Shown here piece after piece: positions 1 through 9,345 of a DNA stretch of 43,649 nt. Within the stretch, counting starts at the first letter, position 1. Every line of letters begins with the position of its first letter. The stretch is from an uncultured Clostridia bacterium (GTDB lineage: Bacteria; Bacillota; Clostridia; Oscillospirales; Ruminococcaceae). The position numbers were made by a program, and so were the translations under genes. The stretch is from contig CANRNN010000015.1 of assembly GCA_947632025.1 (NCBI GenBank), positions 1-43,649 of the forward strand, in the 5' to 3' direction. The notes below the pieces were generated by a model. It ran no database searches. It saw only the letters and a list, made by a program, of their open reading frames with translations, and was not told the origin of the DNA.

Positions 1-77
1 TCCTCCGTAGCTCAGTCGGTAGTAGCACCTGACTGTTAATCAGGGTGTCACTGGTTCAAGTCCAGTCGGGGGAGCCA
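1..77 (+). tRNA. tRNA-Asn (anticodon GTT)
   Basis: A complete cloverleaf can be drawn. The acceptor stem pairs 1-7 with 67-73, the anticodon stem CCTGA/TCAGG holds the loop CTGTTAA with anticodon GTT, the T-arm contains GGTTCAAGTCC, and the CCA (75-77) is encoded. The window begins at the first tRNA base. The last 31 bases recur exactly at 9912-9942, so this gene is the integration site of the downstream island. The integration preserved a whole tRNA on this side. Confidence 0.95.
47..77 (+). repeat. Direct repeat (att site) inside the tRNA-Asn 3' end
   Basis: These 31 bases, from the T-arm to CCA, are identical to 9912-9942 in the same orientation. The preceding base differs (T46 versus G9911). 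Duplication of a tRNA 3' end is the usual signature of site-specific integration into a tRNA gene, so this is read as attL. Confidence 0.85.
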
Positions 78-84
78 GCAGATT

Positions 85-130
85 GACCTTCACAAATGGC
101 TTAACAAAGCCAAATGTGAGGGTCTTTTTT
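85..130 (+). terminator. Rho-independent terminator after tRNA-Asn
   Basis: GACCTTCACA (85-94) pairs with TGTGAGGGTC (115-124). An inner stem GGCTT/AAGCC extends it, and six T residues follow. It lies 8 bases after the tRNA and belongs to the island, since another terminator sits beyond the right att site. Confidence 0.8.
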
Positions 131-137
131 GTAACTG

Positions 138-300
138 TTAAACCAATTTTTGAATTTTGGGACGGTGGTTTAAGCCCTGTTGGGGGATACTGCGATAATG
201 CGGCATAAATGGCTTTATAGAGCCGCTTGCAAGGGATTTTACCCTCAACTATTAAACCAATTTTAGGGGGAGGTTTTGGGGGACGGTGGTTTAAGTCCTG
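138..300 (+). repeat. Tandem degenerate repeats resembling the tRNA T-arm
   Basis: Two imperfect units, about 138-181 and 252-300, each begin TTAAACCAATTTT and end in ACGGTGGTTTAAG(C/T)CCTGT. The ends resemble the tRNA-Asn T-arm GGTTCAAGTCC (14 of 18 positions for the second unit). They may be scars of earlier integrations into the same tRNA. No credible gene occupies 78-552. A minus-strand reading frame here contains PTGLEPVTP-like peptides, the familiar artefact of translating antisense tRNA sequence. Confidence 0.45.
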
Positions 301-344
301 TGAATTTAAGTATTTTGGGTTACATAAGTCATTAAACCACCTTC

Positions 345-373
345 TTGACACACATATACAAATGTGTTATAAT
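345..373 (+). promoter_or_regulatory. Sigma-A-type promoter upstream of the RM operon
   Basis: TTGACA (345-350), a 17-base spacer and TATAAT (368-373) match consensus exactly. It points toward the restriction-modification operon, whose first methylase codon is 300 bases downstream. The intervening leader carries the remnant small frame and the 38-codon ORF. Confidence 0.75.
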
Positions 374-552
374 ATGAATTAGAAATATCAAATAATTTAC
401 AACATTCTAATTCAATATTATCAAAATTCATCTTTTAAACAAATTTAGAGGGTATTGTTTTGTACTCTTAAAAAACTTAATTAAAATGATGAAGAAACAA
501 AGCAATTTAAAAAAGGGCTGCAGCAGACCGATGCCGATTGTCAAATGAGCAA

Positions 553-669
553 ATGGATTCTTTGTTGAAGCATCGAAAGCTACTTGATCTCATCAATTAC
601 GGATTGGAAAACAACGCAAACGACAATCGTTGGGCAGAAATGCTAACCGCAATTTCAGGAGGAAAATAA
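553..669 (+). CDS. Small 38-residue protein preceding the methylase gene
   Basis: This frame begins with ATG at 553 and ends with TAA one base before the methylase ATG. It encodes a charged, helical-looking 38-residue peptide containing LLKHRKLLDLINYGLEN. Its last codons contain the AGGAGG that serves the next gene, so the two are probably translationally coupled. Just upstream a second frame reads NDEETKQFKKGLQQTDADCQMSK with no start codon, which suggests that the small gene is the tail of a larger one broken by a frameshift near 550. I do not recognise the family. It could be a truncated RM-associated regulator or just leader sequence. Confidence 0.4.
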   Translation: MDSLLKHRKLLDLINYGLENNANDNRWAEMLTAISGGK

Positions 670-670
670 A

Positions 671-2680
671 ATGACCTTGAATGAAGTATTAAAAAATACA
701 AACTATGACGTTTCTCTCTTTTCTGAGGAAGCAAGAAAATTCATTGAGGAAGCTATCGTTGTTAAAATCGTCAGGGGCAAGGAAACGCCTTCCATTACAT
801 GCCTGAAACGCGGCAAGGAGATCGTCTTAAAGCCTGAAGAAGCTGTACGTCAGCTTTATCTTTATAAGCTGATTTACGAATACGGTTATCCCACAAGCCG
901 TATCGAAGTTGAATTTCCAATTCATTTTGGTCGTGAAGTCAAACGCGCCGATATTGCCATCATGGACAAGGATCGTCCGATGGTGCCCTATATAATCGTG
1001 GAGCTCAAAAAGCCTAAGCTCAGCGATGGTAAAGAGCAGCTCAAATCTTACTGCAACGCCACCGGTGCCCCTATTGGTGTATGGACGAACGGTGAGCAGA
1101 TTTCCTACTACAACAGGAAAGATCCGAACTATTTTGAGCCGATCACAAATATCCCGAAAGTTTCCGAAAAGCTCAGCGATATTATCAATGAAAAATTCAC
1201 TTATGAAGATCTGAAAAAGATTGATAGAATCAGTCAGCAAAAGCGTTCTCTCCGTTCCCTTATTCAGGAAATGGAAGATGAAGTGCTTGCCAGCGCTGGA
1301 GTTGATTCTTTCGAGGAAATTTTCAAGCTGATTTTTGCCAAGCTCTATGATGAACTGATCTGTGAGCGTGATTCCAGTGCATATTTGAAGTTCCGCAATT
1401 CCGGCGAAACGGATTTCGAGCTGAAAGAGAAAATTCAGGGTCTCTTTGACGATGCAAAGAAAAAATGGGAAGGCATTTTTACTGACGAAAGCAAAATCCT
1501 GCTTTCCCCCTCTCATCTTGCCGTCTGTGTTGCCACGCTTCAGGATATAAAGCTGTTCAACAACAACCTTGATGTAGTAGATGATGCCTTTGAATACCTG
1601 ATGAGCAAGGCACAAAAGGGCGAAAAGGGTCAGTATTTCACACCACGCTATGTCATTGATATGTGCGTAAAAATGATGAATCCCTCCGTCAATGACAAGA
1701 TCATCGACACCGCCTGCGGCAGCTCCGGCTTTACCGTTCACAGCATTTTCAAAGTGTGGAAAGATATTCGCCGTGAAAAAGGACTTCCTGAAGGCGAAGG
1801 ATTTACGGCGGCACAGCGTATTCCTGAAGAAACAAACTTCGTGCGCGACAACGTGTTTGCCATTGACTTTGATGAAAAAACTGTCCGCGTTGCCCGCACA
1901 TTAAACCTGATCGCCGGTGATGGCCAGACCAACGTTTTACATCTGAACACACTGGATTATTCCCGATGGAACGAAATCACAAAGCAGGAAGATTGGAACG
2001 ACACCTATAACGAGGGCTTCAAGAAGCTGAAAAAACTTCAGCCCAAAGGGAGCAATGATTACAGCCAGTTCCAGTTTGATCTGGTCATGGCGAATCCTCC
2101 ATTTGCCGGAGACATTAAAGAAAACACTATTATTTCCCGATATGAACTGGGCAAAAACTCTGCCGGAAAATGGCAGAATAAGATTGGCAGAGATATTCTC
2201 TTTATCGAACGAAACCTGAACTTCCTGAAACCCGGCGGACGTATGGCTATCGTTCTTCCACAGGGACGCTTTAATAACAGCAGTGATAAGGCTATCCGTG
2301 AATATATCGCAGAACGCTGCCGCATTCTCGCCGTTGTCGGTTTGCACGGAAATGTATTCAAACCGCATACCGGAACAAAAACCTCGGTTCTGTTCGTTCA
2401 GAAGTGGGACGATAAACTATGCCCGAAGAAGGAAGACTACCCGATCTTCTTTGCGACGATGCAAAAGCCCAGCAAGGATAACTCTGGTGACAAGCTTTAT
2501 CTGGTTGATCCTGAAACAGGGCTGCCCGCGTTGGATAAACACAATCACCTGATTGTTGATCACGACCTGTTCCAGCTTTCATATATGAAGCAGGACGGAA
2601 CAGAAACTTTGCTTGAACCAGGCATAGCAGAAGCCTTTGCAAAATTTGCGAAAAAGGAAGGTTTAAGTTTTTTTCGATAA
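671..2680 (+). CDS. BcgI-like restriction-modification subunit (endonuclease-N6-adenine methylase fusion)
   Basis: This 669-residue protein joins two activities. Residues about 20-190 match the HsdR N-terminal-like PD-(D/E)xK nuclease fold, with D94 in KRADIAIM and E111/K113 in VELKK. Residues about 210-640 are a gamma-type N6-adenine methylase: motif X GQYFTPR (320-326), SAM-binding motif I DTACGSSGF (346-354) and catalytic NPPF (475-478). No separate HsdR gene is present. The arrangement is that of BcgI-type Type IIB/IIG enzymes, whose A subunit cuts and methylates while a partner supplies specificity. The ATG at 671 has a strong AGGAGG nearby. The 3' end carries a seven-T slippery run and stops at 2680, but the -1 frame leads straight into the specificity gene. 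Confidence 0.88.
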   Translation: MTLNEVLKNTNYDVSLFSEEARKFIEEAIVVKIVRGKETPSITCLKRGKEIVLKPEEAVRQLYLYKLIYEYGYPTSRIEVEFPIHFGREVKRADIAIMDKDRPMVPYIIVELKKPKLSDGKEQLKSYCNATGAPIGVWTNGEQISYYNRKDPNYFEPITNIPKVSEKLSDIINEKFTYEDLKKIDRISQQKRSLRSLIQEMEDEVLASAGVDSFEEIFKLIFAKLYDELICERDSSAYLKFRNSGETDFELKEKIQGLFDDAKKKWEGIFTDESKILLSPSHLAVCVATLQDIKLFNNNLDVVDDAFEYLMSKAQKGEKGQYFTPRYVIDMCVKMMNPSVNDKIIDTACGSSGFTVHSIFKVWKDIRREKGLPEGEGFTAAQRIPEETNFVRDNVFAIDFDEKTVRVARTLNLIAGDGQTNVLHLNTLDYSRWNEITKQEDWNDTYNEGFKKLKKLQPKGSNDYSQFQFDLVMANPPFAGDIKENTIISRYELGKNSAGKWQNKIGRDILFIERNLNFLKPGGRMAIVLPQGRFNNSSDKAIREYIAERCRILAVVGLHGNVFKPHTGTKTSVLFVQKWDDKLCPKKEDYPIFFATMQKPSKDNSGDKLYLVDPETGLPALDKHNHLIVDHDLFQLSYMKQDGTETLLEPGIAEAFAKFAKKEGLSFFR

Positions 2681-2734
2681 GCCCATCCGTTGAACCTTTC
2701 AATGAAGCCAAATATAAGGCTTTGATGGATGGGC
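2668..2734 (+). promoter_or_regulatory. Candidate -1 programmed ribosomal frameshift signal
   Basis: The methylase frame reads T TTT TTT at 2668-2674, a perfect X XXX XXX heptamer. Six bases later (2681) GCCCATCC can pair with GGATGGGC (2727-2734). Inside that stem, TTGAA/TTCAA and AAGCC/GGCTT can form two smaller hairpins. The zero frame stops at 2678-2680. The -1 frame stays open from 2674 into the specificity gene, which would give an endonuclease-methylase-specificity fusion of about 1146 residues. The heptamer, 6-base spacer and stable stem match the known layout of bacterial -1 frameshift sites. A one-base T-run error or mutation is the alternative. Confidence 0.5.
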
Positions 2735-4110
2735 TGGAATGCAGCGAGATATATAAATCGTCACTAAACGATGATTTCAGAATTGACTCAGAATATCATA
2801 AAAAGCGTTATCTTCGTGAAGATTTGTATGTAAAAAAGTTTGTTACCATTTCGATCGGAGACGTTGCCACTGTTTCAGATGGTCAGCATGGATACCATGA
2901 AGAAGATTCTTCTTCTCCAATTCACATGCTTACTGCGAAGAATGCCAAAAATTGGTTTGCCAATCTTGATGACGCTATACGCGTTGCAAAATGGGTTGAT
3001 GACAATAACAAAAGATCGTCGTTAGAGGTTGATGATATTATTCTTTCGACCAGAGGTACAGTAGGAAAATGTGCATTAGTAAAAAGCGATGTTCTTCCTG
3101 CCAATCTTGACCAAGATGTTGCGCGCATTTCCTTCATGGACACACGAATTATCTCTGGATTTGCGATATGTTTCCTTAATTCCAAGTTTGGACAGGATTG
3201 GATGATTCGAAACCAAACAGGAATGGTGCAGCAAGGTTTACCTTTAGATAAAATACGCCAAATGCCAATCCCGCAAATGACAGTGCTTTTTCAAAAGGAA
3301 ATATCCGAAGTAGTCGAAACTGCTTTTATGAGAAAAACAAACGCTGAACAGACGTACAACGAGGCTAATACAATACTATCCAATGCTATTGGCTTAAGTT
3401 CGACGCAGGCATCGACTCTGTCGATCAAAAAGCTGTCTCAAAGCTTCTTGCTTTCAGACCGCCTTGATGCAGAGTACTATCAACCGAAATACGAGACGAT
3501 TGCGCAGAAACTCAACACCAGAGAGACAGTACTATCATTGTGCAATCTGTATGACAAAAATTTTAATCCTGATAGAAAGCAAACATATCAATATATAGAA
3601 CTTGCAGATGTGGGGCAATCAGGTGATATTTCTGATGTTACTATTCAACTCGGCGGTGATTTACCTACGAGAGCACGTCGGCTCGTAAAGGCGGGGCAGG
3701 TGATAGTGTCTTCTGTTGAAGGCTCATTGCAGAGTTGTGCTCTGATTACCGATGAATATGACGGTGCATTGTGCTCAACAGGTTTCCATGTGCTTGATTC
3801 TGACAATATAAACTCTGAAACATTGCTTGTACTTTTTAAATCTGAACCCATACAGGCATTGATGAAGCAACGTTGCTCAGGAACAATTCTTACTGCCATC
3901 AGCAAGGACGAACTTCTTTCTATGCCGCTGCCGATAATTGATGAGAATATTCAAAAAGAGATCACCGCCAAGGTTCAGGAATCCTTTGCGCTTCGCAAGC
4001 AGTCAAAGCAGCTTCTTGAATATGCAAAGCAGGCAGTTGAAATGGCAATCGAGAAAGGCGAAAATTCCGCGTTGAACTGGCTAAAAGACAAAATTCCTGC
4101 GGAGGTGTAA
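2725..4110 (+). CDS. Type I-like restriction specificity subunit (HsdS/BcgIB-like)
   Basis: This 461-residue protein has the two-fold layout of specificity subunits: target-recognition domain 1 (about 30-195), a long spacer helix, target-recognition domain 2 (about 245-410) and a second terminal helix ending in KQLLEYAKQAVEMAIEKGEN. It would recognise a bipartite DNA site for the upstream nuclease-methylase. ATG 2725 is preceded by a weak AAGG, and a TTG lies directly before it. The reading frame is open further upstream, and its extra peptide SPSVEPFNEAKYKAL resembles normal N-terminal sequence of such subunits. Synthesis by frameshifting from the upstream gene is therefore plausible. Two bases separate it from the next gene. 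Confidence 0.85.
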   Translation: MDGLECSEIYKSSLNDDFRIDSEYHKKRYLREDLYVKKFVTISIGDVATVSDGQHGYHEEDSSSPIHMLTAKNAKNWFANLDDAIRVAKWVDDNNKRSSLEVDDIILSTRGTVGKCALVKSDVLPANLDQDVARISFMDTRIISGFAICFLNSKFGQDWMIRNQTGMVQQGLPLDKIRQMPIPQMTVLFQKEISEVVETAFMRKTNAEQTYNEANTILSNAIGLSSTQASTLSIKKLSQSFLLSDRLDAEYYQPKYETIAQKLNTRETVLSLCNLYDKNFNPDRKQTYQYIELADVGQSGDISDVTIQLGGDLPTRARRLVKAGQVIVSSVEGSLQSCALITDEYDGALCSTGFHVLDSDNINSETLLVLFKSEPIQALMKQRCSGTILTAISKDELLSMPLPIIDENIQKEITAKVQESFALRKQSKQLLEYAKQAVEMAIEKGENSALNWLKDKIPAEV

Positions 4111-4112
4111 AT

Positions 4113-5189
4113 ATGTCTCGAAATAAGTTATACAAAAACTGGAAAGCAGTAACCGAAGCAGATTTTGTATCATTGTTCATAAAAACATGGTTCGCTTATA
4201 TTTCTACACTACGAACTATGTTTCCAGAAGCTGCGAACAGAAGAGGTGATGGCAAATATCTAAATACCTATAAAGATAATTATCGAACAAGCGGAAGCAA
4301 AAAACTCGTTGTCGATGACCAGATTATGGCGGCAATGGAACAAGTGTATCGCGAGGGTCGTAAGGTAATAATGGAGCAGTATCCTGAATATTACCTTTGG
4401 GATTTTTATCACGTAAATGAAGATTTTGAATATACTTTTAAAGATATTCCGCCGGACAAAAGTGATTGTCTCATCATCGGTTTAAAACTAAATCGAAATC
4501 GTGGCGCTAAGTGGCAGTTTGTAATATCTGGGTTTGCGCGTTTCTTCGGTAAATACTACGATGAATATAATGGAAATGTCCAATTCCAGTGCAATATCTC
4601 GGAAATTCTCGAATCGTCATCGGCACACGTTAGAGACAATCCAAATGAGAGCGAGCAGGACTATCTTTCTTGGTTGCTACGGGAAGTAAACGTCTCGTTG
4701 ACACATAGTATTGTTGAAGCTTTTAAAGTGCACTATGAAAGTGCTACCTACGGAAAACGCGTTCTGAATAAAATAGGCGATCTTGAAAAGCGTATTATTG
4801 CTCTTATATGGCAGGTTTTTGCTCTCAATGCAAAAGACGAAACATTTAAAACGGTAGAAGAAATGGGACTTTCACGAAATACATACGAATTGATTCAGCA
4901 ACGTCCATTAAACTATTTTCAATATCATTTTGATGTAGATTGGATGCCCCAGCGTGAATTAACTGCGGCGGAAGAAGAGTGGTTTCACAAACTGTATGAA
5001 TCGCTTAGACAAAATAGCGTCCTCTGGTTTCTCGACTTTGTATATCGTCTTCGGAATGCGTTATTCCACGAGATAATAGATCCATTAGATGAGGAATGGC
5101 AAGTTATTTTTAAAAATGCATACTTGGTACTAAAAGAGATAGTAGACCTAAATATAGCAACTATCGACATTACAGGTCAGACGGTTTAA
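4113..5189 (+). CDS. RM-operon protein with a C-terminal HEPN-like Rx4H motif
   Basis: This 358-residue protein has no family I can name. It starts 2 bases after the specificity gene and ends just before the operon terminator, so it is co-expressed with the RM system. The sequence is mixed alpha/beta with a Trp/Tyr-rich first half. The C-terminal part is helical and contains R314-N-A-L-F-H319, which fits the R-x4-H catalytic motif of HEPN ribonuclease and antiphage proteins. By context it could be an auxiliary nuclease that acts if restriction fails, or a regulator of the RM enzymes. The HEPN call rests on one motif and overall helicity. Confidence 0.55.
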   Translation: MSRNKLYKNWKAVTEADFVSLFIKTWFAYISTLRTMFPEAANRRGDGKYLNTYKDNYRTSGSKKLVVDDQIMAAMEQVYREGRKVIMEQYPEYYLWDFYHVNEDFEYTFKDIPPDKSDCLIIGLKLNRNRGAKWQFVISGFARFFGKYYDEYNGNVQFQCNISEILESSSAHVRDNPNESEQDYLSWLLREVNVSLTHSIVEAFKVHYESATYGKRVLNKIGDLEKRIIALIWQVFALNAKDETFKTVEEMGLSRNTYELIQQRPLNYFQYHFDVDWMPQRELTAAEEEWFHKLYESLRQNSVLWFLDFVYRLRNALFHEIIDPLDEEWQVIFKNAYLVLKEIVDLNIATIDITGQTV

Positions 5190-5210
5190 CTTAGTTTTCA
5201 GACGAAAGAA

Positions 5211-5243
5211 AACGGCGGCAAGGATCAGCCTTGCCGCCGTTTG
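5211..5243. terminator. Terminator of the RM operon
   Basis: A perfect 14-bp stem AAACGGCGGCAAGG (5211-5224) / CCTTGCCGCCGTTT (5230-5243) has a 5-base loop. A/T-rich sequence on both sides lets it serve the RM operon from the left and the minus-strand tnpV remnant from the right. Confidence 0.85.
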
Positions 5244-5248
5244 TTCAT

Positions 5249-5657
5249 TAAACGTAGATTAGATCATTATTGACGATTTCCGTTGCCGTTCCCCGTACTG
5301 TGTTCATCTGTTGTACCCAAAGTATCTGATCTTCCGCTTTTAGCGTTTCCGTGATGTTTTCATTTTCGGCAAGTTCATTTATCAACCGAAAGAACATATA
5401 CTCCGCCTGCTCGTTCAGATCGGCAAGATAGCCGTTGAGCTTCCCGCTGAGAAGCAGGCTGTTATATAGCCCTTTGCGATACTCACTGATATACCGAAGA
5501 TGCCGCTGTCCCCAAATGCCTATGAGCCGTTCTTCCTCGGCGGGTAAAGTAAGACAGGGGATATATATTCACCTTGCAGTTCATACCAAAGGCCATTGTT
5601 TTTATCATAAATGTACTTGTCCATCTTGAAATCTTCCAGTATAATATATTCGCACAT
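5249..5657 (-). pseudogene. tnpV: tnpV-like transposon protein, frameshifted
   Basis: Reading the minus strand and allowing one shift gives a TnpV-family protein: MCEYIILEDFKMDKY, then (after the break) CLTLPAEEERLIGIWGQRHL and KLNGYLADLNEQAEYMFFRL, ending VNNDLIYV. The frame changes in the TATATATA tract near 5555. TnpV is a small protein of unknown role in Tn4451-type and related clostridial elements carried next to large serine recombinases. No intact recombinase adjoins it here, which supports decay. Residues before the break are a plausible but shorter N terminus. Confidence 0.7.
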
Positions 5658-5699
5658 ATGCCACAGTTTCTCGATTGCCACACCTTGTTATAGCCTGTT

Positions 5700-6074
5700 A
5701 CCAGATTTAGTTTCCCTCGTTTTTGCCCTTATAAAGTACGAGTGCAAGGGTAAACCTATGTGAAATCGTATAAAGGGATAAGGTGGACACATTGCGATAA
5801 ACCCTTTATTTTCAAGCGTTTCGGAGGGTTTTGTTAACGCTCTATGATGGGCGATAACCACTTATAAAATTGTGGTTTTCAAATCCAAATTTATATTAAG
5901 ATACCAATATCTTCCTTGTTCTATTATACACCGCCCTATTGAAAATGTCAACAACTTTCTGTAAAGAAAAAGAAAGCACTCTCCAAACGAAAAGTGCATG
6001 TGCAGCTTTAAGAATCGGTCTTTCGTTCTTTATTTCTGCAACACTAAATCAATACAGACATTGAAGCATAACCT
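5700..6074. other. Intergenic AT-rich region without a gene
   Basis: No coding frame is credible here. The only structure seen is a small inverted repeat AACCAC/GTGGTT near 5860-5880, and poly-purine stretches before the relaxase remnant. Confidence 0.5.
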
Positions 6075-7088
6075 TTACAAAGAGCAGCGCGGCTTTGCCC
6101 GCGATTTAAGTTCTTCCTCAACTAACCTCGCTATGTAATCCCCCTTTGAAATCTCGTAGTAGGTCTTAGCAATCTCCGAGTACAGTTCACACAATTTGCT
6201 GCACCTCTCGAAGTTCTCTTTGAGGGGTGCAGCTTTTTTCTGCATGTCGGCAACGACGGATTTGAGGTACTCGTAATCCGAACGGTTTACAATGTTGTTG
6301 CTCTCCAACACAGTCTTGTGCATTTTCAGCCGCAACTCATCGGCGGGTATTCGCTCTGCCTTGTCCAACAACGAAAAATATTCCTCGGCTTGCTCAGCTA
6401 GGGTTTTCAAATTATCAAGTTCGGTGGTAAGCGTGTTCAGCTCCTGCCGTGCTTTTTCAATCTCGTATTCAAGCTGACGAATTTTGCCTTCAACTTCCCC
6501 GATAGAGCGGAGATTGTCACGGTTAATCACGGTGAGCATAGCTCCAAGTTGTTCGAGAGTTGGGTGGTTGGCATTGACCGCTTGAATGTCGTCAATAGTT
6601 TTAGAATACTTGTCACGAAGTGCTGAACTCTTGCACGGATTTTTTATTCCAGCACCAACATCTCGCCACAAAATTCTTGAAGCAAGGCTTTCGACTGTGT
6701 AGTCCTCGCCCAAAGTTTTCAAGCGCACCGCCCGCTGTTGATCGGGAGCCTTGACCGAGATATATTTTCCGCGCCGTACTGTGTAGCCGAGCATTTCAAG
6801 CTCCGCGAGCAACTCGTCAACATTCTTGACCTTGAGTATCAGTCCATCTATCTCCAGACGGATTTTTTGTTTCCAAGAAGTACCGCGCTGCTCGTTCTGC
6901 CATTCATTGTATTCAACGGTTTTGCGTTTGTCTTTGGATTTGTCGAACGGTTGAATTCCAAATGCAAGGCACACCCTGTCGGAAATCTCTTTAAGTTCGT
7001 CAAGGGTTTTCTTGTTGACGTTGAATTTCCGACCATCAATTCCGTAAGAGTTTATGATAATATGGTTATCAACGCGTGTGGCAATCAC
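6075..7088 (-). pseudogene. MobA-type relaxase, N-terminally truncated
   Basis: The first residues, IATRVDNHIIINSYGIDGRK, match the third relaxase motif (normally DxDHxHNHIIIN). The nicking tyrosine domain that should precede it is missing, and the metal-binding HxH is itself shortened. Upstream, an out-of-frame LLISLAIAIKL looks like residue from the missing part, so the loss was a small internal deletion plus decay. The remaining 337 residues include the relaxase tail and a long coiled coil (about 200-330). It lies 3' of mobC in the usual mobC-mobA order. As it stands it should not nick DNA, so the island would need a relaxase in trans. Confidence 0.75.
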
Positions 7089-7165
7089 AATTTAATAGCT
7101 ATCGCCAAACTGATGAGCAAATTTTGAAAACTAAATTTTTTCGTCTTGTTAGGAAAGGGTGTCAG

Positions 7166-7504
7166 TTAAACTGCGATTGACGGTAGTGCGGAGAGAAATT
7201 GATTTAAGGTATGGCATAACGATTCGTTCTCCTTTCTGAGTTTCTCCACATCTTCGGCATAGATGTTGTGAGTTTCATTCGCTTTCTTTGCGATTTGGTT
7301 GATGTTCGCGCCGATGATACGCAAGGCTTTCATCACTTCGCCCACCTTGGACATATTAAAATAGGTTATATGCCCGTCGAGGGACATACGTTTAATGAAC
7401 GTTCCCGTTTTCATCATAACCGAGGCTGCCCGTTCCTCAATCGTTTTCCATTCATCAATAGAGAAGATGACCTCTTTTCGTTTTACTTGTTTGTACTTTC
7501 TCAT
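7166..7504 (-). CDS. mobC: MobC-type relaxosome accessory protein (copy 1, full length)
   Basis: This 112-residue basic protein begins MRKYKQVKRKEVIFSIDEW and contains the MobC signature MKALRIIGANINQIAKKANE, followed by a coiled coil. MobC binds oriT, helps open it and recruits the relaxase. The start at 7504 is chosen for its ideal AAGGAGG 9 bases away. A longer frame to 7543 has no such site. The protein sits between the oriT-like region and the relaxase remnant. Truncated near-identical copies lie at 22918-23136 and 37890-38243. Confidence 0.9.
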   Translation of the reverse strand: MRKYKQVKRKEVIFSIDEWKTIEERAASVMMKTGTFIKRMSLDGHITYFNMSKVGEVMKALRIIGANINQIAKKANETHNIYAEDVEKLRKENESLCHTLNQFLSALPSIAV

Positions 7505-7940
7505 AAAAATGACCTCCTTATGATTTGATTTTTTGGGTTTCAAAGCCTAGTGCTTTGGGGTAATTAGTCTTAGGGTCGGGTTCCCTAAGAAACATTTTGA
7601 GGGGGTCTGCGCTCGAAATGTAAGAAAATCCCAAAGAATACGGGATTTTCTGTGCTTGCTATGCATACAAAAAACGAAAGAATCCGTATTCCTCATTTTG
7701 GCGTTTTTGGTCTGCTCCTGCAGACCCCCTCAAAAATTTTCTGCGGCGGCGAACAGCAGATTGTGTTACCCCCCTCACTTATAGGAAAAAAACTAGCGGG
7801 AGAATTAGGGGGAGATGAAAAATTTATTTTAAGTTTGTTGCAATGCATATATTGGCAGTGAACATTTTGTACAAAAAGTAGAATAGAAAAAAATTTGTTC
7901 TTACCCCCTAATAAATCGCCGAAAATTTTCCTATAAGTGA
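7505..7940. other. oriT-like structured region, copy 1
   Basis: This non-coding block is repeated at 23137 and 38244. It contains CTTAGGG/CCCTAAG (about 7569-7589), an outer inverted repeat TTTTGAGGGGGTCTGC (7595-7610) / GCAGACCCCCTCAAAA (7720-7735), an inner GAAAATCCC/GGGATTTTC hairpin, and a 15-bp inverted repeat TCACTTATAGGAAAA (7775-7789) / TTTTCCTATAAGTGA (7926-7940). Nested hairpins directly upstream of mobC are typical of a transfer origin. I cannot locate the nick site. The following bases to about 8010 form a leader also shared with copy 3. Confidence 0.65.
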
Positions 7941-8033
7941 AGGGCAAAATTTTCGGAGCAGTATCTTGCCGTTTTGTTCCAAACCTCGCCAAAGATTTTA
8001 CCTTTCAAGTTTTCAACAGAGAGGGGGAGGACG

Positions 8034-8603
8034 TTGGATAATGTTTTCTTTGAAATTAAAAGCAGGCTGTCTATGCCGGAGGTCGCAAAGTTCTACGGAT
8101 TGGAAGTGAACAGGTCGGGTATGGCTTGCTGTCCGTTTCACGATGACAAAAATCCGAGCCTTAAAATTTACGACGATCACTTTTACTGTTTCGGTTGCGC
8201 GACTACGGGCGACTGTACGGGATTTGTGGCGAAGTTGTTCGGGTTGCGGCAGATTGACGCGACACGGAAAATCAGCGAGGATTTTGGGTTAGGGTTGTTT
8301 GACAGGAATTTCGCCGCTCCTATTAAAATAGCTCCCAATCCAAAATACGAAATGCAGAAGTGGCTTAGTGAGGCAAGGCTAACCATTAAGGAGTATTTGA
8401 CCGAACTTTACAAATGGGACAGAGAATATGCCCCACGAAATCCGTCGGAGCAGCTTCACCCGCTGTTTGTCGAGAGCCTGCAAAGAATTGACTACATTGA
8501 GTATCTGCAAGATATTCTCACGCGCGGTTCGGAGGAGGATAAGCGCGATTTGTACGAGAACAGAAAGTCCGTAGTTAGAGAACGGAGGTATAATTATAGC
8601 TAA
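8034..8603 (+). CDS. CHC2 zinc-finger protein, DNA-primase-like
   Basis: The first 60 residues hold a CHC2 zinc finger with ligands C33, H36, C52 and C55 in CCPFHDDKNPSLKIYDD...YCFGC, the DNA-binding module of DnaG primases. The rest (to 189 residues) lacks the TOPRIM catalytic domain, so it is a short primase-related protein of the kind carried by mobilizable elements. I chose TTG 8034 because GGGGGAGG lies just before it. An ATG at 7974 would translate a leader that is also present, non-coding, before a different gene at 38720. It may aid replication of transferred single-stranded DNA (inference). Confidence 0.75.
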   Translation: MDNVFFEIKSRLSMPEVAKFYGLEVNRSGMACCPFHDDKNPSLKIYDDHFYCFGCATTGDCTGFVAKLFGLRQIDATRKISEDFGLGLFDRNFAAPIKIAPNPKYEMQKWLSEARLTIKEYLTELYKWDREYAPRNPSEQLHPLFVESLQRIDYIEYLQDILTRGSEEDKRDLYENRKSVVRERRYNYS

Positions 8604-8604
8604 A

Positions 8605-8754
8605 ATGAAAAAAGCGCCCGCCGAGAAATCGGACAAGCGGGCAGAGATAATTTTGGTTCGTCATTTCGGCGACAAGGACTTCATTCAACTTTACGCGGAG
8701 TATGTTACCGCTAAGATTTTGGATAGAGCAGAGGAAGAACGGAAGTCCGCATAA
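8605..8754 (+). CDS. Small conserved mobile-element protein (49 residues)
   Basis: The ATG lies one base after the CHC2 gene stop, and a GGAGG is 16 bases upstream. The core RAEIILVRHFGDKDFIQLY and the tail RAEEERKSA are repeated in a 53-residue homologue at 23681-23842, also next to an oriT-like module, so it is a real conserved gene. It is charged, lacks membrane segments and is followed at once by the recombinase promoter. I cannot assign a function. A recombination directionality factor or small regulator would fit the position. Confidence 0.7.
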   Translation: MKKAPAEKSDKRAEIILVRHFGDKDFIQLYAEYVTAKILDRAEEERKSA

Positions 8755-8770
8755 AAATTTGCAAGGGTGC

Positions 8771-8799
8771 TTGACTTCCTTATTGTAATATGGTATAAT
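8771..8799 (+). promoter_or_regulatory. Promoter of the serine recombinase
   Basis: TTGACT (8771-8776), a 17-base spacer and TATAAT (8794-8799) lie 44 bases before the recombinase ATG. The bases leading into it (AAAATTTGCAAGGGTGCT) recur after the homologous small gene at 23842, where the promoter is broken at the edge of the shared segment. Confidence 0.8.
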
Positions 8800-9161
8800 C
8801 AAAAAGGAAGCTGATGTACTCTTGCTCAGAAAGGAAACGATTATGAGCTATATAGAGCACAAGCGTTTTCCCGCGAAGCGGGATAATGCGTATTCAGCAG
8901 CGTGTTATTGCAGACTTTCCCGTGACGACGAAAACGATGGTACAAGCGTTTCGATTGAAACGCAGAGGAAGGTTCTTGAGGACTATTGCCGCTCCAACTT
9001 TTACGAGGTATACAACTTCTATTGCGACGACGGTTACACGGGAACTAACTTCGACCGCCCTGCTTTCAAGCAGATGATGTCCGACGCGAGCGACGGCGCA
9101 GTCAATATGATTGTGGTTAAAGACCTCTCGCGATTTGGACGAAACTACATTGAAGTGGGTG

Positions 9162-9345
9162 GTTGGCAGTTTAAAATTTACAGTGTAAAGTGTACAGTAG
9201 TTGGAATCCGCCTAACGGCGGATTTTTATTAGATTGTAACAAAAAAGTAGAAGTTGCCGATAAAATTCAATACAATCAAAAAACGTTGGCAAAGCGAACG
9301 CACCTTATACTGTTCACCGTAAACTGTAAATTGTAAACTGCCAAC
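9162..9345. mobile_element. MITE-like element in the serine recombinase gene
   Basis: The 36-base ends 9162-9197 and 9310-9345 are inverted repeats with 31 of 36 matches, beginning GTTGGCAGTTTA. The interior (about 110 bases) carries a hairpin AATCCGCC/GGCGGATT (9204-9223) and no gene. The recombinase segment between the two sides is missing, so no target duplication can be read. Confidence 0.7.

Follow-up and report, generated by a model that had tools for sequence, protein, structure and literature searches.

The nuclease-methylase gene (M) and the specificity gene (S) of a restriction-modification system from an uncultured Clostridia bacterium are very likely expressed through a conserved programmed -1 ribosomal frameshift, which would make both M and an M-S fusion from one mRNA. 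Comparison of homologous loci gives the slip heptamer, the hairpin that follows it, the frame relation of the two genes, the coding character of the linker between them and a mirror form of the layout; the shift itself and its frequency are what we infer from these features. The window, as we use the word, is the whole stretch of DNA that was analysed, 43,649 nucleotides long.

In the proposed mechanism, ribosomes translating M would meet T TTT TTT with a hairpin ahead, and a fraction of them would slip back by one base, both Phe tRNAs re-pairing on TTT. The slipped ribosomes would bypass the stop of M and continue through a conserved linker into S, so that an RM-S fusion is made, and the unslipped ones would terminate two codons on and release free RM.

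The M/S junction of the window

The features of the junction and of the two genes that it joins are as follows.

671 to 2680, + strand: M, a nuclease (HSDR_N_2) with an N6-adenine methylase, 669 aa (Pfam PF13588, PF02384, PF07669)
2654 to 2658, + strand: Shine-Dalgarno-like AAGGA, 9 nt upstream of the slip site, a possible stimulator
2668 to 2674, + strand: candidate slip heptamer T TTT TTT, in the M frame
2674 to 4110, + strand: S as read after a -1 shift, made of the linker (2674-2721) and the specificity subunit (Pfam PF01420), with its stop at 4108-4110
2680 to 2691, + strand: 5' arm of the main stem, pairing with 2724-2735
2704 to 2723, + strand: inner hairpin, 2704-2709 with 2718-2723; 79.2% of cells are paired in the 20 distinct rows of the long type described below
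2722 to 2727, + strand: TTG ATG, a possible internal start of a separate S if the two genes were merely coupled
2724 to 2735, + strand: 3' arm of the main stem, overlapping the possible S start codons

The zero frame is that of M, which ends in AGT TTT TTT CGA TAA with its stop TAA at 2678-2680. The original prediction had placed a T7 run at 2668-2674 in the methylase frame and a zero-frame stop at 2680, and both coordinates are exact; the run has the form X XXY YYZ in the zero frame and is of a class that is efficient in bacteria. The -1 frame, described as open through S, is open from 2617 to the stop at 4108-4110, and the expected fusion of about 1146 residues comes out as 668 + 478 = 1146. 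The hairpin had to be redrawn in part. The 8-bp stem 2681-2688/2727-2734 is real and belongs to a stem of 12 pairs (2680-2691/2724-2735); this stem begins 5 nt past the slip site, the announced 6-base spacer being the distance to the first G-C pair only; and where two inner hairpins had been seen, the minimum-energy fold has one, of 6 pairs (2704-2709/2718-2723). Over 2680-2735, the hairpin has a folding energy of -26.6 kcal/mol (z -5.28), and none of 200 dinucleotide shuffles folds as low. The AAGGA at 2654-2658 had been missed.

The heptamer and the hairpin fit what is described for bacterial frameshifting. Stimulatory hairpins usually begin 5-8 nt downstream (PMC4066793), and the most efficient heptamers in E. 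coli include H_HH.U_UU.Y and V_VV.A_AA.R (Sharma et al. 2014, PMC4066793). Both T TTT TTY and G GGA AAG, the two motifs found at this junction among homologues, fall in these most efficient classes, which supports the frameshift. An Rfam scan of positions 1-6000 gave no match at the junction, and a tRNA and two sub-threshold matches elsewhere.

Among solved sequences, that of RM.BsaXI is closest to the M of the window, and S has two recognition halves, matches being found in both. With nuclease and methylase in one chain and such an S, the pair has the make-up of the Type IIB (BcgI/BsaXI-like) systems. A classical Type I system was not accepted, as positions 1-9000 of the window hold no ORF longer than 669 aa and hence no adjacent HsdR translocase subunit; nor was MADS (MAD2/MAD5), the scores being 306.9 bits versus an NCBIfam cut-off of 720 and 141.8 versus 400. 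The two genes directly follow a tRNA (1-74). Near them are MobC/NikA-like (7169-7543) and CHC2 zinc-finger (7974-8600) genes, and a relaxase-like gene (6078-7088) whose score is slightly under the Pfam cut-off; judged by these neighbours and the tRNA, positions 1-9232 are probably a mobile element. Immediately after S, a 358-aa gene (4113-5189) has no match in Pfam, NCBIfam or PADLOC. At the corresponding place, E. coli carries a 264-aa hypothetical gene, of unrelated length, and two DUF262 genes.

Conservation of the junction among homologous loci

Because T TTT TTY is common, with 65 occurrences on the two strands of the window, a lone T-run is weak evidence, and its weight comes from conservation. 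Homologues were scanned for with the S protein in one genome per species, the patterns being taken from the S body and not from the junction, and the best 80 of the 92 stretches coding for a relative were kept. When three loci from the genome of the window are added to these 80, M lies directly before S in 71 cases: S is in the -1 frame in 58 of them and in the +1 frame in 6, and the two genes are fused in 7. Even at 26-30% identity, the matches often start as early as query residue 8 or 9, ahead of the TTG at residue 17 that is the first possible start. Further loci were added from genome searches, viral contigs, and phage, plasmid and E. coli records. With identical junctions merged and an M match required to reach at least residue 655, this made 107 distinct junctions from 125 loci.

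T TTT TTY is present in 61 of the 107 (the T class) and G GGA AAG in 11 (the G class), S being open in the -1 frame from the heptamer in both; 11 more are single-frame M-S fusions (the F class), all of which keep T TTT TTY. The signal and the -1 relation are thus found together in 72 split junctions and, in mirror image, in 11 fused ones. The original prediction had seen in the T-run and stem of the window a candidate -1 frameshift yielding M and an M-S fusion, and had proposed that homologues be aligned. The comparison supports this reading: the T-run and the stem are conserved across hosts whose labels span at least ten phyla, and the comparison adds T TTT TTC and G GGA AAG as alternative motifs, and fused homologues with an early -1 stop.

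Could the frame relation come from a frameshift mutation, a sequencing error or homopolymer phase variation? Homopolymer tracts do switch some modification genes (PMC3711429), and yet the same relation recurs in 72 of 107 distinct junctions, some of them with T6C or with motifs that are not homopolymers. The T7 itself, where a run of six or eight would have spoken against the shift, is identical in four related records, one Klebsiella pneumoniae plasmid and three E. coli chromosomes; the variable tract length of phase variation is not seen. We regard this explanation as extremely improbable. Transcriptional slippage at the T-run, yielding mRNAs in two frames, is also very improbable: T7 is a homopolymer and one remote fused homologue (L141) has T9, but such slippage is said to use T runs longer than 8 (PMC3711429), the runs are mostly T7 or T6C, G GGA AAG stands in their place in 11 junctions, and a downstream hairpin would have no clear role.

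The layout is absent, or scored as absent, in 24 of the 107 junctions. In 11 of these, M ends in FW and at most a few residues, followed by an ordinary start or another gene (L009, L040, L048, L073, L078, L083, L099, L124, L130, L131, L136). Eight are remote, at 28-38% identity (L058, L081, L082, L085-L089), and five are odd (L107, L119, L113, L016, L116). L116 does carry the element and was grouped here because its M match ended too early for scoring; L016 was scored here without an assigned class. L107 and L119 (loci L035 and L077, Bacteroidales) read AGT TTT TCG TAA (T5), with S in the +1 frame of M and a hairpin of 17-18 pairs kept (-30.4 and -28.5 kcal/mol). These T5 junctions may use a +1 or a -2 shift instead. 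Phage Mu has a -2 frameshift site of similar shape. L113 (locus L021, a Roseburia bin) has S in -1, a hairpin of -22.5 kcal/mol, no canonical heptamer (ATT TCT TTT TGA) and a differing M tail. In a contig binned as Akkermansia (L031), M is 97% and S only 35% identical to that of the window, a case of transfer or mis-binning with S swapped and the junction kept.

The pattern is specific to M/S junctions. Among 1274 distinct ORFs of at least 100 aa, drawn from the window and the collected homologous loci, 206 have a -1 ORF that crosses their stop and runs for at least 100 aa beyond; within the last 11 codons, T TTT TTY or G GGA AAG is found in 72 of the 206, each of them an M/S junction. In 71 of the 72 T and fused rows, AGT is the Ser codon that comes before TTT, and AGT makes up 18% of the preceding Ser codons of the same genes; the heptamer class demands its last T, not the choice of AGT over TCT. 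Upstream, 65 of the 83 junctions of classes T, G and F carry a Shine-Dalgarno-like match of at least four bases, versus 47.8 expected from synonymous shuffles (T 52/61, F 11/11, G 2/11).

The same 83 junctions were folded over 72 nt and compared with 200 shuffles that keep the S-frame peptide and the local codon use. The median z of the hairpin is -3.74 (T), -3.92 (G) and -4.6 (F); it is below -2 in 79 of the 83 (T 59/61, G 11/11, F 9/11) and above 0 in none. In a MAFFT alignment of the 72 split junctions, a difference in length put the stem out of place, and covariation was therefore assessed in two gapless registers, with 70 rows chosen by predicted fold, five of them fused genes. The short type (49 rows, 48 distinct) has ten consecutive pairs without a mispair: 85.3% of cells pair versus 30-59% when the register is slid, and none of 500 shuffles reaches its covariation score. 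The long type (21 rows, 20 distinct, the window included) has 90.8% of cells paired versus 21-46% when slid. Two-sided pair changes give a weaker signal, their count being reached by 30 and 15 of 500 shuffles; the other covariation measures are reached by at most 4 of 500. In the remaining 13 of the 83 junctions, the helices lie in other registers, and four fused genes among them (L101, L102, L109, L132) have a different hairpin directly after the slip site.

The linker bears on whether S is made separately. In the -1 frame, its pN/pS is 0.34 (short type) and 0.30 (long type), with no stop, versus 0.80-1.15 and some stops in the other two frames. Judged from these sequence comparisons, selection at the protein level acts, in the -1 frame only, on the linker that precedes any S start. 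Between the point where the S frame opens and the fifth codon after the slip site, 54 of the 72 split loci offer no ATG, GTG or TTG in that frame. Translational coupling on its own, in which M would end at 2680 and a separate S would re-initiate at TTG 2722 or ATG 2725 with the hairpin gating access, has in its favour that 71 of the 72 split loci offer, no more than 60 nt from the M stop, an ATG, GTG or TTG in the frame of S, mostly a conserved-Leu TTG. It can also draw on the TAAGG upstream of ATG 2725 in the window, on the records that annotate S from that TTG, and on EcoKI, whose M and S are translationally coupled (PMC3510504). Yet the conserved coding linker sits upstream of that start, one split locus (L022) has no S start within 60 nt past the M stop, and 50 of the 72 split homologues have no ATG near the S-start region. 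Coupling also leaves the slip heptamer, and its swap for another canonical one, without a role, and heptamer and hairpin are kept in fused homologues, so that we judge coupling alone to be quite improbable. Internal initiation in addition to the frameshift could supply extra free S, given the nearby start in 71 of 72 loci.

The mirror form and the reach of the element

In the fused homologues, the -1 frame stops immediately (TGA or TAA) in 10 of 11 and after five codons in the other, and a -1 shift there would therefore give free RM. One of these fused genes, L094, comes from Picosynechococcus pAQ6. The chance of a stop at that place, its first base being T, is 0.31-0.39, and that of at least 10 in 11 is 6e-5 to 5e-4 if the rows are taken as independent, which they are only in part. 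The shift would then act in both directions, producing the fusion from split genes and free RM from fused ones.

Of the 107 M proteins, the 89 with an identity of 33% or more and no fewer than 400 residues were placed in a tree, without their last 15 residues, by a quick search with midpoint rooting; the tree has some long branches. On this tree, the fused state changes 5 times, at least 4 of them on strongly supported branches, and G GGA AAG changes 7 times, at least 5 on such branches. In the main clade, 75 of 78 rows have a canonical heptamer, the exceptions being L107, L113 and L016. Homologues with an ordinary start and no slippery run, which the original prediction had named as evidence against it if close, make up 11 rows of the tree, all outside the main clade. 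As read from sequence, the predicted two-product output stays constant across the M tree while the means of reaching it change.

The hosts of T, G and F junctions are labelled as Bacillota, Bacteroidota, Pseudomonadota, Campylobacterota, Spirochaetota, Planctomycetota, Fibrobacterota, Chloroflexota, Verrucomicrobiota and Cyanobacteriota, and also as Synergistaceae; these labels may err, since many records are metagenome bins. A K. pneumoniae plasmid also carries the element, as do 3 of 5426 E. coli genomes; there, two genes are annotated and S is made to start from a TTG in the 3' arm. Two-gene annotations that start S inside the hairpin in this way would leave out the linker and overlook the fusion protein.

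The element also occurs in a remote M subfamily, which shares about 30% identity with the M of the window: four of its loci are split (L116, L142, L117, L144), and L141 is fused, with a -1 stop after three codons. The element is absent from L143, L118 and L145, the last of which has its own ATG. This subfamily gave no match in plasmids (E at most 1e-100) or in viral contigs. The system is uncommon: of 398 genomes drawn from the phylum of the window, 5 match M at 1e-150, its own included. At 1e-60, M is matched in 7 of 200 relatives, again with its own, and five of these are of the 30%-identical kind without the element.

Proposed subunit supply and comparison with known systems

One RM-S chain and one free RM chain would make (RM)2S for an S with two recognition halves, and BsaXI is indeed an (RM)2S enzyme (PMC11997821). 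As (RM)2S would need both chains, recoding would set the subunit ratio, and by analogy we consider it fairly probable that supplying this stoichiometry is the purpose of the shift. We hold with similar, moderate confidence that a branch of RM+S enzymes in at least ten phyla, with two deeply separated M subfamilies, has its RM/RM-S ratio set by frameshifting in both directions. If so, a recoding signal specifies the assembly stoichiometry of a defence enzyme, and the shift supplies the natural RM-S fusions of the family with their second RM chain.

The shift may also be real and serve another end, for example if only the fusion works as an enzyme, free RM being a by-product or a regulator. Activity is known for single-chain enzymes that have two recognition domains, such as AloI and CjeI (PMC3874165), and two single-chain loci of the profile PDLC03624 (L147, L148), not placed with AloI or CjeI, lack the element, as no heptamer with a strong hairpin and an early -1 stop was found near their RM/S border. 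The fused homologues, on the other hand, keep a signal whose plain effect would be to make free RM, and 4 of the 7 genomes with a fused gene gave no second M match; two others have a second M that is about 30% identical, and the last has M in two pieces on two contigs. Another purpose is thus possible but, in our view, rather unlikely, and the supply of (RM)2S stoichiometry is the one that we prefer. Loenen et al. regard as a mystery the way in which AloI and CjeI work with a single RM part and a pair of recognition domains (PMC3874165). The fused homologues would answer such a puzzle for their own family, though not in general, since L147 and L148, which match a different single-chain profile, do not carry the signal.

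Rather few cellular bacterial gene families have documented programmed frameshifting, and we found none among them that is a restriction-modification system. The original prediction had known of no restriction system of this kind, and no report of frameshifting in the M or S genes of such systems was found in the literature searched, which takes in few subscription papers and not the Sharma 2011 survey. Term searches of the excerpted PMC3711429, PMC5009743 and PMC4066793 brought up no M or S gene of a restriction-modification system as an example of frameshifting. The nearest case is a fusion of control protein and restriction enzyme in which a frameshift was sought and not seen (PMC3850674).

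With the BcgI and BsaXI Type IIB enzymes, the system shares the joining of nuclease and methylase in one chain and the two-domain S; it differs from BsaXI in the predicted frameshift, a term that does not occur for that enzyme in the excerpted text of PMC11997821. The EcoKI M-S fusion ('Type IMS') offers another parallel. This man-made fusion needs added M for cutting in vitro, and it restricts in vivo without added M, where its authors suspect traces of free M (PMC3510504); the difference is that the fusion is engineered, the natural EcoKI genes being overlapping and coupled (PMC3510504). IS3-family transposase genes use the same U_UU.U_UU.Y and G_GG.A_AA.G classes with a hairpin a few nucleotides downstream (PMC4066793), but they serve the transposition of mobile elements and have no subunit-ratio role of this kind.

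A further likeness, in layout and with no kinship implied, is to dnaX (gamma/tau), where a slippery heptamer and a downstream structure yield a short and a long subunit of one complex, about 50% shifting fits that complex, and single-frame and two-ORF layouts both exist (PMC3711429). The fused homologues described here are the mirror form, as in E. coli dnaX. The two differ in that dnaX encodes part of a polymerase clamp loader, whereas here it is the M/S pair of a restriction-modification system that carries T TTT TTY or G GGA AAG. With a signal found across phyla, interchangeable slip motifs and a mirror layout, this pair would constitute a natural experiment on the control of subunit ratios.
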